Below, piece by piece: positions 54,501-60,500 of a DNA stretch of 64,000 nt. Position 1 is the stretch's first letter. Every line of letters starts with the position of its first letter. The DNA is taken from the NCBI GenBank assembly GCA_032622095.1, contig CP136069.1:33888194-33952193 (forward strand), read 5' to 3'. A program made the position numbers and the translations under genes. Under the pieces are notes generated by a model that had not been told where the DNA came from, searched no databases, and saw only the letters and a program-made list of their open reading frames with translations. Source of the stretch: Siphonodentalium dalli (lineage: Eukaryota; Mollusca; Scaphopoda; Gadilida; Siphonodentaliidae).

Positions 54501-57500
54501 TCAGTATTTAACAAGTGTTTAAACTAGGGCCCTACAGTTGAAGATAGGATTTGATTCAAAACCTTCATTATTAGATTTTATCTGAAGCCATTCCCATGGG
54601 TTCAAGCTATATTCAATCTTCAAGTTGCAACTAAGCAATTAGGGCCCTGCGAATTGGCTCATGGGGCCGATGTTGATATCAAATCTCAAATTGAATCAGC
54701 TCACCGCTGGTGCACAGTAGCTTGTACATATATGCAGGTTTTCAAAGATGGTCAGGAGTTTATTCTTCGCCAAGCCTGAGTTTAGTGTGTCTGTCATTTG
54801 CAGAATGAAGCCTCAGAGGGTGAGTTTAGTGACACCATCTCGCATTGCGGGCTACCATCACTAAATTCACCATCTGGGGACTTCATTCTGCTTAGGCCTC
54901 ATGTTCTCTGGAAAGTTTCTTTATAATCAAATTTCTATAGAAACTTCTTCACATACTAGATTCTTTTTCTTTTTTAGTTCAGTTTCTCTATATCCCCAAA
55001 TTGGCAGACGACTCATTGCATAACTGAGGTTCCCAATGGGTGTACATCAAAATATTCAGCATTTGGGAACTTCAATCATGATTGGGGTTATATATACATA
55101 CTTGTGGTTGTATATCATGATTGGGGTTATATATACATACTTGTGGTTGTATACCATGATTGGGGTTATATATACATACTTGTGGTTGTATATCATGATT
55201 GGGGTTATATATACATACTTGTGGTTGTATACCATGATTGGGGTTATATATACATACTTGTGGTTGTATACCATGATTGGGGTTATATATACATACTTGT
55301 GGTTGTATATCATGATTGGGGTTATATATACATACTTGTGGTTGTATACCATGATTGGGGTTATATATACATACTTGTGGTTGTATACCATGATTGGGGT
55401 TATATATACATACTTGTGGTTGTATACCATGATTGGGGTTATATATACACACTTGTGGTTGTATGCCATGATTGGGGTTATATATACATACTTGTGGTTG
55501 TATGACACGATTGAATGAGGTCCTGAGATGGTGAATTTAGTGATGCTAGCCCTCTAAATTCACCCTCTGGGAACCTCATTCTGCATATGACAGACACACT
55601 ATAATCAGACTTTAACATCGCATCCTCTGGTTGTAGCCTATAATCTACATACATTCCAATTAAGTTTGAGTTATTAAACTATTTTTTAAATGTGTTGGAG
55701 CATGTTTATGTACAAAATAAATAGGTGGTTGCAGTTAAAGATATATAATCCGAGTTAAGGCTCCCAAATTACTATTTCTTTGGCTTCGGGGTAAAAATAT
55801 CTATTTCGAGTCGAAGAACCCACCCATCAAAGCTCAGAGTGATCAGATATAAATTTTTGAAATTTGTTGTTTCTCGATATGTGAACTTACTTGTGGCCTA
55901 GAACAAAGCGTCAAACTGTCGGTCTCTGACAAATTTACGGATGAAGATGGATAACTCTAAAATCAAGACTTTTATGTGAAGTCTTATGCTTGGGATAGTA
56001 GGCGTTATTGTTTTGTAACCAGTATTTTATCTATTTCAGGACTATGTGAAGTCTCTTGCCTACGCTCGGGATCGGGAGCAGGTGGCCTCGGCTGGTTTAG
56101 ATCGGGCGATATTCCTGTGGGATGTAAATACATTGACTGCCCTTACTGCTACCAACAACACTGTTACAAGTTAGTCTGATTTCATTCATTTGTCAACTGT
56201 CATTATTTTCTAGTAACAGAAGCTTCTGTTTATACCCCTGAACCAATAATGAAAGTTCGAGAATGAGATATACAGTAATGCCCTAAGTAATCAACCTCTT
56301 AACCAGAGCAGAATTATGGGTGACTTTTCAGGATTTAGTCGGAAATATGGCTTGTTGCCATTCATCGGAAAGCTCTCCCGAGAGCTTTCCGATGAATGGT
56401 AACAAGCCATATTTCCGACTAAATCCTGAGAAGTTAACCATAATTCTGCTCTGGCTAAGAGGTCGATTACTTAGGGCATTACTGTACCATCTTAAAGGTA
56501 CACAATATGATTTGATGGTCCCCATTTCATCATATTTTGACAACAACATTTCTCAAAATCTGATAACTCTGGGCTTTGATGGGTGGGTTCCTTGACTCAA
56601 AATCTAATATTTTTTACCCTGAATCTGAAGAAAGTGTAATTTGTGGGCATTAAATCAGATTATGTATCTTTAAATAAATTTTGGTATATTATTTCTTCAG
56701 CATCAAGTCTGAACGGTAACAAGGATTCCATATACAGCTTAGCCATGAACCCAGCTGGAACTGTGATAGTATCCGGGTCAACAGAGAAAGTGCTTCGGGT
56801 CTGGGACCCAAGAAGCTGCCAAAAACTCATGAAACTCAAAGGTCACGCAGATAACGTCAAGGCTCTCATCCTCAATCGGGATGGAACACAGGTAAGCCTT
56901 ACTCATTCAAGGGTTCTCTTAGGCAATGACAGGGTTCTAATCGGGTTGGAACACAGGTAAGCCTTACTCATTCAAGGGTTCTCTTAGGCAATGCCAGGGG
57001 TCTAATCGGGATGGAACCCAGGTAAGCCTTACTCATTCAAGGATTCTCTTAGGCAATGACAGGGTTCTAATCGGGTTGGAACACAGGTAAGCCTTACTCA
57101 TTCAAGGGTTCTCTTAGGCAATGACAGGGTTCTAATCGGGTTGGAACACAGGTAAGCCTTACTCATTCAAGGATTCTCTTAGGCAATGACAGGGGTCTAA
57201 TCGGGATGGAACCCAGGTAAGCCTTACTCATTCAACGGTTCTCTTAGGCAATGACAGGGTTCTAATCGGGTTGGAACCCAGGTAAGCCTTACTCATTCAA
57301 GGGTTCTCTTAGGCAATGACAGGGTTCTAATCGGGTTGGAACCCAGGTAAGCCTGACTCATTCAAGGGTTCTCTTAGGCAATGACAGGGTTCTAATCGGG
57401 TTGGAACCCAGGTAAGCCTTACTCATTCAAGGGTTCTCTTAGGCAATGACAGGGGTCTAATCAGGTTGGAACCCAGGTAAGCCTGACTCATTCAAGGGTT

Positions 57501-60500
57501 CTCTTAGGCAATGACAGGGTTCTTATCGGGTTGGAACCCAGGTAAGCCTCACTCATTCAAGGATTCTCTTAGGCAATGACAGGGGTCTAATCGGGTTGGA
57601 ACCCAGGTAAGCCTTACTCATTCAAGGATTCTCTTAGGCAATGACAGGGTTCTAATCGGGTTGGAACCCAGGTAAGCCTGACTCATTCAAGGGTTCTCTT
57701 AGGCAATGACAGGGGTCTAATCGGGTTGGAACCCAGGTAAGCCTGACTCATTCAAGGGTTCTCTTAGGCAATGACAGGGGTCTAATCGGGTTGGAACCCA
57801 GGTAAGCCTTACTCATTCAAGGATTCTCTTAGGCAATGACAGGGGTCTAATCGGGATGGACACAGGTAAGCCTTACTCATTCAAGGATTCTCTTAGGCAA
57901 TGACAGGGGTCTAATCGGGATGGAACCCAGGTAAGCCTTACTCATTCAAGGGTTCTCTTAGGCAATGACAGGGTTCTAATCGGGTTGGAACCCAGGTAAG
58001 CCTTACTCATTCAAGGGTTCTCTTAGGCAATGACAGGGTTCTAATCGGGTTGGAACACAGGTAAGCCTTACTCATTCAAGGGTTCTCTTAGGCAATGACA
58101 GGGGTCTAATAGGATTTTTTTAAGCAACGACAGGGGCCTGAATTTAGTGTATCTGACATTTGCAGAATGAGGTCCCCGGTGAATTTAGTGTCGCTATCCC
58201 ACATAGTGGGCTGGCATCACCAAATTCACCATCTAGGGAGCTCATTCTGCTTAGGCCTCAACTGCTATGGGAGACCTAGGATCAAATTGAAGTTCCCCAG
58301 GTGATGTTTAATCATTAGTCACCTCGATTATGCAATTTATCTTCTGCAATAGGGGATATAGAAACTTCCCAGAAGGGAAAAAGTAACTAAAAACAATGTT
58401 AATTTGACACTATAGATATTCCCAGAAGATGAGGCCTTAGCAGAATGAGGTCCCCAGAAGGTGAATTTGGTGATGCTAGCCCACTGGAAACTCCCTCTCG
58501 GGGGACCTCATTCTGCAAATGTCAGACACTAAATTCAGACTTGGAACGACAGGGGCCGAAAGTGGGCCCCAATTCACAGAAAGTCTCTTTGTTTTCTGAA
58601 CAAAAGATAGGGAGCCTCGCATATATAAGCGAATGCACTGTCTTACAAGTTCAAGGTAAATATTGTTAGGCCAATGTATTTTCTTATATAAGCGAGACTC
58701 CCTATGGGAGACTTGCATTTATAAGAGAATGCATTGGCACAGGGTTTTCTCAAAATTTCCAGAAGCTCCAGTCATGGAAGGATTATATTTGTAATAATCT
58801 AAGAAATACATCATATGGTTCGATTACACTAAGGTTCACCATAAAAATCTATATTCGCTATATATTCCCAATTATAAGCCTCTATGGCTCAAATTTCCCA
58901 ATGGAATGGGCCGGGGAGCCATTCCCAAAACGAGTAATCAATTGTCATTGTGATTTCACAGATCAGATTTATTTTCAATTCCTTCACAGTTAATTTGATA
59001 GCTAATGGCCCAATCATTACAGTATAAAGGAGTTTAACTAACTTTATTTTCAGCAGTTTAATCAATTACACTAACTTCGATGTGGAATAACATTTGCAGA
59101 AAACCAGTTATTTATTTTCGATCTTGGGTAGTTTGATCAATTTACACTAACTTTGAGGTGGAATTAATCAGTACAAAATGGCAGCCATCGCCAACAATAT
59201 AATTTTGGACTACACGATCATTTAGGCTTGTTGCATGAATTTGAGAATGACCTTCAGCTTCCTCTTTGTTGTATAATTATATAGCAAAATCTTAAATCTG
59301 ATTGTTCTCGTATATATGCAGACGCCTTACCTTAGAAGTTTACTTCATTCACTATAATTGGCTCCTCCCCTGGAGTCGGTGAAGCAAGATCTTCAAATTA
59401 TAAGAATTGCCAGACCGTAGTTTTAAATATAAGCAGTTTTTATGTGTTATATTTCTTAATAATGTATATTTTTGCTTGGAAAAAGTTTTGTCAATATTCT
59501 CTTTTATAAAAAAAAAACATATTTTTAATCAATTTTAATTTTAAAAAAAGGGCGACCAATTCATCTGTGGTGTGTCAGTTTGTGCCTCATGCTGGAAGTT
59601 TTCATAAGCAAACAATCCGAATGTCATGTGATTTCCATTCAAGTTAATGTGTAAAAATTAGACTTTTACAGAAGGATAATGCTTTTTACTGGTAAATTTT
59701 ATGCAAATATTTGGGATATGAAATTAACTGAAATTTACTCTATTATTGTCCGCCGACCCAACGGGTTCGGAGGACTATTATAATCAGCCTGTGCGTGTGT
59801 CCGTGCGTGAGTGCGTCCGAGGTTTCCGGATGATAACTTTAGTTAGAGCGAACCAAAGTAAATTAAATTTGGTATGTGGGTTTACTAGCAGAAAAGACAG
59901 GTCAAGTTCGAATTCTGGTTCCGTCCGCCAATTTTCACCAGAGTTATGCCCCCTTTTCGACTTAGAATTTGACCGTCTGTTAACATTTTTGGTATCCGAC
60001 CGATAACTCCAGTTTGGATTATTTGATCTGAACCAAAGTTGGTATGTGTCTTTCTCCCAGCAAAACACAGGTCAAGTTCGAATTCGGGTTCCGCCCGCCA
60101 ATTTTCACCAGAGTTATGTCCCTTTTTAGCTCAACTTTACTTTGTAAAGTTTGAGCTATTGCCATGGCTTGGTATCCGTCGTCCGTGTGTGCGTGTGTGA
60201 TGCGTCAACAATTTCCTTTAGCACAGGCTACAGGTTGTATCTTTAATCGGATCATTATAAAATTTGTCATAGCTCTTGACATTGACATGTAGATATGAAC
60301 GAGTCATTTTGGGGTCATTCGGACAAAAAACATGGCCGTCATCGGCCATCTTGGATTTCAAAATTCAATCCATTAGCACGGGCTACAGGCAGTACTGTTC
60401 GTCTGATCATCATGAAATTTGTCATGGATGTTAATATTGACATGTAGATGGGAACGAGTAATTTTGGGGTCATTCGGCCAAAAAACATGGCCGCCAGCAG

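Follow-up and report, generated by a model that had tools for sequence, protein, structure and literature searches.

Splice donors amplified into a minisatellite at WDR48 exon 6 in Siphonodentalium dalli, probably a "mirage" of the exon border

The locus described here lies in a 64,000-nt stretch of the Siphonodentalium dalli genome (assembly GCA_032622095.1, contig CP136069.1, positions 33,888,194 to 33,952,193; hereafter the window), which contains no N and carries exons of WDR48, the sixth of which runs into a minisatellite of splice donors. The borders of exons 3 to 7 follow GT-AG, and these exons can be joined into a single open frame. The features of the exon 6 region are listed below in window coordinates, with a slash marking the exon-intron border.

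56701-56891, + strand: WDR48 exon 6, 191 nt, intact frame, placed by matches to a WDR48 fragment and to Protein Data Bank (PDB) chains
56874-58110, + strand: minisatellite of 65 bp x 19, each unit made of the final 18 nt of exon 6 and 47 nt of intron (Tandem Repeats Finder [TRF] and dissection of the units)
56889-56897, + strand: true donor CAG/GTAAGC, in copy 1
56892-62947, + strand: intron 6, 6,056 bp
56954-58066, + strand: 18 extra CAG/GTAAGC donors with identical 9-mers
56958-56960, + strand: in-frame TAA overlapping donor 2
58112-58136, + strand: decayed remnant of the intron half of the unit at the 3' edge of the array, found by eye
62948-63052, + strand: exon 7, 105 nt

The translation of exon 6 ends in NRDGTQ and is 84.6% identical across 65 amino acids to a human WDR48 fragment. 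Exons 6 and 7 joined encode 98 amino acids, and residues 1 to 98 match PDB chains of WDR48; the top-scoring PDB chain is a generic WD40 protein, which gains its rank through the sum of its many repeats. The genome searched comprises 2.23 Gb in 9 contigs (labeled C1, C2, and so on). It holds a single WDR48 locus for these two exons: 2 of the 16 matches are the exons themselves, and the remaining 14 are at most 37% identical. No processed WDR48 copy that would reveal the spliced product was present among the 16 matches.

TRF called the repeat as one array of 65 bp x 19.0 copies with 95% matches, where the copy number of 19 is the count in the assembly. There are 19 exact occurrences of CAGGTAAGC in the window, with first bases from 56889 to 58058, and the shorter CAGGTAAG occurs on the + strand of the window at these 19 array sites and nowhere else. 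Of the 18 spacings between donors, 17 are 65 bp and one is 64 bp. An earlier sequence-only reading of this DNA had described a row of 19 donors with a 65-bp period at the edge of a 6.1-kb intron, and both statements hold. It had placed the start of the array exactly at the exon border, which is 18 nt too far downstream, as the first unit begins inside exon 6. Copy 1 retains the exon 6 coding sequence and the donor untouched. The copies differ at nine true variable columns and by a 1-bp deletion. The variable columns avoid the donor 9-mer, yet not significantly so (P = 0.095 for 14 columns, five of which exist solely because copy 16 is shifted in register). Neighboring copies are no more alike than other copies, with 3,529 of 5,000 shuffles reaching the observed value. 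Because the 9-mer is identical at 19/19 donors, splice scores computed from the 9-mer sequence alone cannot separate them. The genome contains 42 matches to U1, and the four of these that were read begin with ATACTTACCTG; against the U1 5' end ACTTACCTG given by these four, the array donor pairs at 8 of 9 positions. The array sequence itself has a single match in the genome. A short interspersed repeat lies right behind the array (about 58121-58200, also delimited as about 58136-58200), and the 42 further genome matches listed, 83 to 95% identical, belong to this flanking repeat. A second tandem array inside intron 6, 164 bp x 15, was called by TRF at 60214-62645.

The frame stays normal when donor 1 is used. 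Splicing at donor 2 would add 65 nt and run into a stop within exon 7, 62 nt ahead of the exon 7-8 junction, and donors 3 to 19 all take in the TAA at 56958-56960, so that a premature stop follows from 18/18 extra donors. This agrees with what the sequence-only reading had said of the frame; it had also seen the TAA, one base upstream of its correct position (about 56957-56959). Nonsense-mediated decay is expected for stops lying more than about 50 to 55 nt before a junction, and the premature stops of the extra donors lie where such decay would be expected.

A second exon border of WDR48 is also repeated. Intron 3 holds three further copies of the exon 3 end, GGGAGAACAT/GTGAGTTTT, the best of them with an E value of 8.5e-9 (blastn-short), and TRF placed this array at 52698-52810 with 3.1 copies.

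51500-51575, + strand: WDR48 exon 3, with donor CAT/GTGAGT
51783-52579, + strand: 161-bp x 5 array between exon 3 and the copies of its donor (TRF)
52697-52812, + strand: three units of about 36 bp that carry the exon 3 end and GTGAGT, in intron 3 at 1.1 kb from the exon (TRF and blastn-short)

Among WDR48 exons 3 to 8, nearby border copies were present for 2/6 donors and 0/6 acceptors. Extra matches of the exon 8 borders belong to a dispersed repeat and a poly-T run.

Donor arrays adjoin exons of other genes. An exon of SEC13 ending in IASCSQ (PDB E value of 5.4e-27), with further SEC13 exons downstream, is followed directly by one. So are a thrombospondin type 1 (TSP_1) exon, which scores 40.4 bits in Pfam against a cut-off of 21.6, and an exon probably of transportin-3 (TNPO3), with a PDB E value of 2.7e-4 and a Pfam score of 25.0 that is under the cut-off of 27. 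Two more donor arrays follow PAN-like frames slightly below the Pfam cut-off. None of the unit lengths of 65, 55, 52, and 19 bp is divisible by 3, and the units are therefore not coding additions. The sequence-only reading had treated the array as special to WDR48; with exon 3, SEC13, TSP_1, and probably TNPO3 as further cases, it belongs instead to a recurrent class. Two of these arrays and one case on the acceptor side are located as follows.

C1:44953800-44958500: SEC13 donor array (L010), 15 exact CAGGTAAGC, spaced mostly 55 bp and twice about 30 bp apart
C1:250981600-250984500: array at the probable TNPO3 exon end (L022), 19-bp unit, about 38 copies, 23 exact CAGGTAAG
C2:20475075-20478293: chaperonin exon with a duplicated acceptor border (L084), the mirror case

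The donor-array loci were sampled from two pattern listings (14 of 15 listed arrays in one and 13 of 14 newly listed ones in the other). Of the resulting 27 loci, 21 distinct ones were retained after removal of six that were near-identical or had the same unit (L006, L009, L013, L027, L029, and L031); from the pair L031/L032, the member with the longer frame, L032, was kept. A link to an exon is established or suggested for 5 of the 21 (SEC13, TSP_1, TNPO3, and the two PAN-like frames) and not for the other 16. The longest frame running into CAG had a median of 46 amino acids at the 21 arrays versus 25 at 29 single CAGGTAAG sites (Mann-Whitney p = 0.011), and the Fisher p values for arrays versus single sites were 0.087, 0.033, 0.027, and 0.29 at 40, 45, 50, and 60 amino acids. 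The single sites were chosen by hand within the initial 7.2 Mb of C1, and 29 of 40 were used, with L042 and 10 repeat-family duplicates excluded; in Pfam, 29 frames of at least 20 amino acids at such sites gave two families with one member each. These comparisons weakly suggest that donor arrays sit closer to exons than isolated CAGGTAAG sites do.

A repeat-blind sample of exon borders was taken from chaperonin (Cpn60_TCP1) loci, namely, the best 20 of 53 matches less two long single-frame ones. The resulting 18 loci include several near-identical pairs, and the ends of the matches served as exon borders. One of the 18 had a duplicated acceptor border, the two copies lying 55 bp apart and sharing 96% identity over 47 nt. 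Two more, which form one pair, had a 22-nt match ~700 bp upstream of the acceptor side, and one had a 17-nt match within the intron on the donor side; a clear donor duplication was present at 0/18. Border duplications are thus not rare in this genome, at a rate that the sample fixes poorly. Two near-identical chaperonin segments (L080 and L081, C7:133431878-133435078 and C7:133487658-133490858) differ by a 61-bp intronic tandem duplication, with 2.1 copies in one and none listed in the other.

A genome-wide enrichment of donor arrays was considered and rejected as evidence, because a few long arrays produce the excess of raw matches. Three CAGGTAAG with gaps of 40 to 70 gave 5,355 raw matches versus 1,057 for the reversed pattern, and two narrower patterns gave 313 versus 155 and 722 versus 176. 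When distinct arrays were counted by eye among the matches listed for the first 190.4 Mb of C1, 13 were found for the donor pattern and 13 for the reversed one. CAGGTAAG alone occurs less often than its reverse (42,594 versus 56,529).

The genome studied here, at 2.23 Gb in 9 contigs, contrasts with those of amphioxus, which measure close to 0.5 Gb and have about 19 chromosomes. The closest precedent for the WDR48 array comes from amphioxus, where two papers describe tandem duplications across exon-intron borders, named mirages, in Adh3, the globins BflGb6 and BflGb9, troponin C, and PGBD5 (PMC3087553, PMC3902484). Many of the copies there retain AG/GT signals, the length of the arrays is unstable, and the Adh3 data together with globin reverse transcription-PCR suggest that splicing is undisturbed (PMC3087553, PMC3902484). 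The array in WDR48 is built like a mirage and shares these features: it is a border-spanning minisatellite (with units of 10 to 160 bp in amphioxus) whose units run head to tail, 18 nt of exon and 47 nt of intron in each of 19 copies; the splice signal CAG/GTAAGC is retained in 19/19; and such repeats occur in several genes and at both donors and acceptors, the acceptor side being represented by the one case with 2 copies. It differs in having 18 extra copies with every donor identical. In a potato RdRp gene, one study reports that an intron was gained through a tandem AGGT duplication (PMC4974935), which is similar in that a tandem duplication carries splice signals and different in that in WDR48 an existing intron was lengthened at its donor. 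Such exon-border repeats are of a known kind that has rarely been described and that cells appear largely to disregard. The WDR48 array stands out for its copy number and for the second such array in the same gene. A search of the literature for similar arrays in other animals returned relevant work on amphioxus, IFI6, and intron gain, which is no proof of absence elsewhere.

We consider the WDR48 array to be an exon-border minisatellite of the mirage type, from which the first donor is used and the extra copies are mostly ignored, with a probability of about 0.78. Replication slippage or unequal exchange may have amplified the border between exon 6 and intron 6. A duplication across a donor would spare the original donor as well as the coding sequence, so that it could escape selection and expand. 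The spliceosome would then mainly pick the first donor, which is favored by exon definition and is the first to be transcribed, and the array would be removed as part of an ordinary intron, with any misuse of later donors remaining at a low level and being cleared by nonsense-mediated decay. The untouched first donor and coding sequence are seen directly, while the other steps of this scheme are drawn from precedent.

Predicted RNA structure may assist in masking the decoys, as a hairpin in WDR48 is predicted to pair the decoy GU and not the true one. When the 39 nt ending at each donor were folded, the donor GU was paired in 18/18 extra copies and unpaired in copy 1. Where the exon has A, the extra copies often have T (unit position 8) and C (position 15), and 10 of the 18 have both changes. 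Introduced into copy 1, T8 and C15 complete a 10-bp stem and so lower the predicted energy of the fold from -5.9 to -13.3 kcal; 5 of the 18 copies attain -13.3 kcal, and the remaining five with T8 and C15 attain -10.4 kcal. An equally good fold arises in only 8 of the 3,915 double substitutions tried in copy 1, and among the 117 single substitutions C15 was the best, while T8 was equaled or beaten by 12. The predicted cost of opening the donor in the 10 doubly changed copies was 3.5 to 5.5 kcal versus 2.6 for donor 1 in a folding window of 80, 4.5 to 6.0 versus 3.4 at 150, and 5.7 to 6.8 versus 3.4 at 240. The first donor of SEC13 ranked 1/15 in openness at a folding window of 80. Structural masking as a general rule was rejected on WDR48 and 26 of the 27 array loci (L014 was left out). 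A hairpin that covers the decoys more than the true donor may help to mask them at this locus, as a local possibility.

A number of points weigh against first-donor use and against the hairpin as its aid. Work on donor competition often favors the downstream one of two equal donors, and the last copy of the array would therefore be predicted to be in use. Five extra donors (2, 4, 5, 16, and 19) are predicted to be more open than donor 1 at a folding window of 150, and donor 1 itself is mostly paired, with a probability of being unpaired of 0.004 to 0.015. A G62 variant in 9/19 units weakens the stem, and T8 on its own does not stand out (it is equaled or beaten by 12 of the 117 single changes). 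At a folding window of 80, the first donors of TNPO3 and TSP1 are the least open of their arrays (23/23 and 20/20). The hairpin test was also chosen after the data had been seen. The human IFI6 minisatellite, reportedly described by Turri et al. in 1995, resembles the WDR48 array in consisting of splice donors repeated where an exon ends; its units are said to be short, at 12 bp rather than 65 bp. A citing paper states that the IFI6 (6-16, G1P3) minisatellite offers multiple donors and that two of the downstream repeats are used (PMC4526556), and a yeast paper cites it as interfering with splicing (PMC3618361).

It is possible, though unlikely, that the array acts as a copy-number rheostat in which each extra donor diverts some splicing to decay and array length sets WDR48 output. 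The premature stops at 18/18 extra donors, the nearest of them 62 nt upstream of that junction between exons 7 and 8, the 9-mer shared by 19/19 donors with 8/9 positions pairing with U1, and the use of extra repeat donors in the IFI6 account (PMC4526556) are consistent with such a role, as is the variation in copy number of some donor arrays elsewhere between near-identical segments. Five pairs of similar donor-array segments at loci other than WDR48, which are paralogues or unmerged haplotypes, were compared. Two pairs, neither tied to an exon, differed in copy number (8.1 versus 11.1 copies of 35 bp in aligned segments 99.4 to 99.6% identical, and 6.1 versus 11.1 copies of 75 bp at 98.3 to 98.9%), and a PAN-like pair was rearranged with mixed 46- and 28-bp units. 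However, 2/5 pairs had equal copy numbers (6.0/6.0, at a signal-peptide-like frame, and 2.8/2.8), similar arrays in other conserved genes argue for tolerance, and the amphioxus mirages are reported without splicing disturbance (PMC3087553, PMC3902484). The sequence-only reading had offered both silenced copies and copy-number tuning; the first is favored by the amphioxus precedent and by recurrence in other genes, while the second is unsupported, as no constraint was seen in the array. A broader version, in which donors of conserved genes (WDR48 twice, SEC13, and probably TNPO3) carry fast-mutating splicing rheostats genome-wide, with leak following copy number and openness and a hairpin of within-array origin hiding part of the WDR48 decoys, is quite improbable.

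We think it very improbable that the 65-bp units (GT...AG, with AG/GT seams) leave the transcript as tiny introns or by recursive splicing and so restore the mRNA. Every seam does read CAG/GT, a branch-like CTAAT lies about 16 nt ahead of the CAG in 17/18 seams, and the creation of introns by tandem AGGT duplication is an established idea (PMC4974935; Rogers model cited in PMC3087553). The seam is, however, merely exon coding sequence, with pyrimidines at 6 to 8 of the 16 positions before the AG, compared with 11 and 12 at the acceptors of exons 6 and 7; this was true of 18/18 seams, so that they have the AG of a recursive-splicing (ratchet) site but lack its pyrimidine tract. Least probable is an assembly artefact or a wrong copy number, since although tandem arrays are error-prone and one amphioxus mirage was judged mis-assembled in a draft genome (PMC3087553), the copies truly differ in nine columns and include a deletion of 1 bp, the window has no N, and similar arrays stand at independent loci.

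The 19 identical strong donors of the WDR48 array, of which the first alone would be productive, constitute a natural experiment on the choice between equal splice sites. The two WDR48 arrays and those of SEC13 and TNPO3 provide natural constructs that vary in copy number, unit length, and predicted openness. Should arrays of this kind prove frequent here, they would be raw material for new exons and introns, as has been proposed for amphioxus (PMC3087553).

Two other repeats were recorded. TRF called a tandem array of 21 bp x 313 at 372-6916 of the window. A dispersed tandem-repeat family with units of 32 to 57 bp around TTAACCAATACAGGTAAGT forms many of the listed donor-like arrays and was found at the following places.

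C1: 24.34, 28.09, 95.78, and 257.63 Mb
C2: 19.75 and 29.26 Mb
C3: 13.68 Mb

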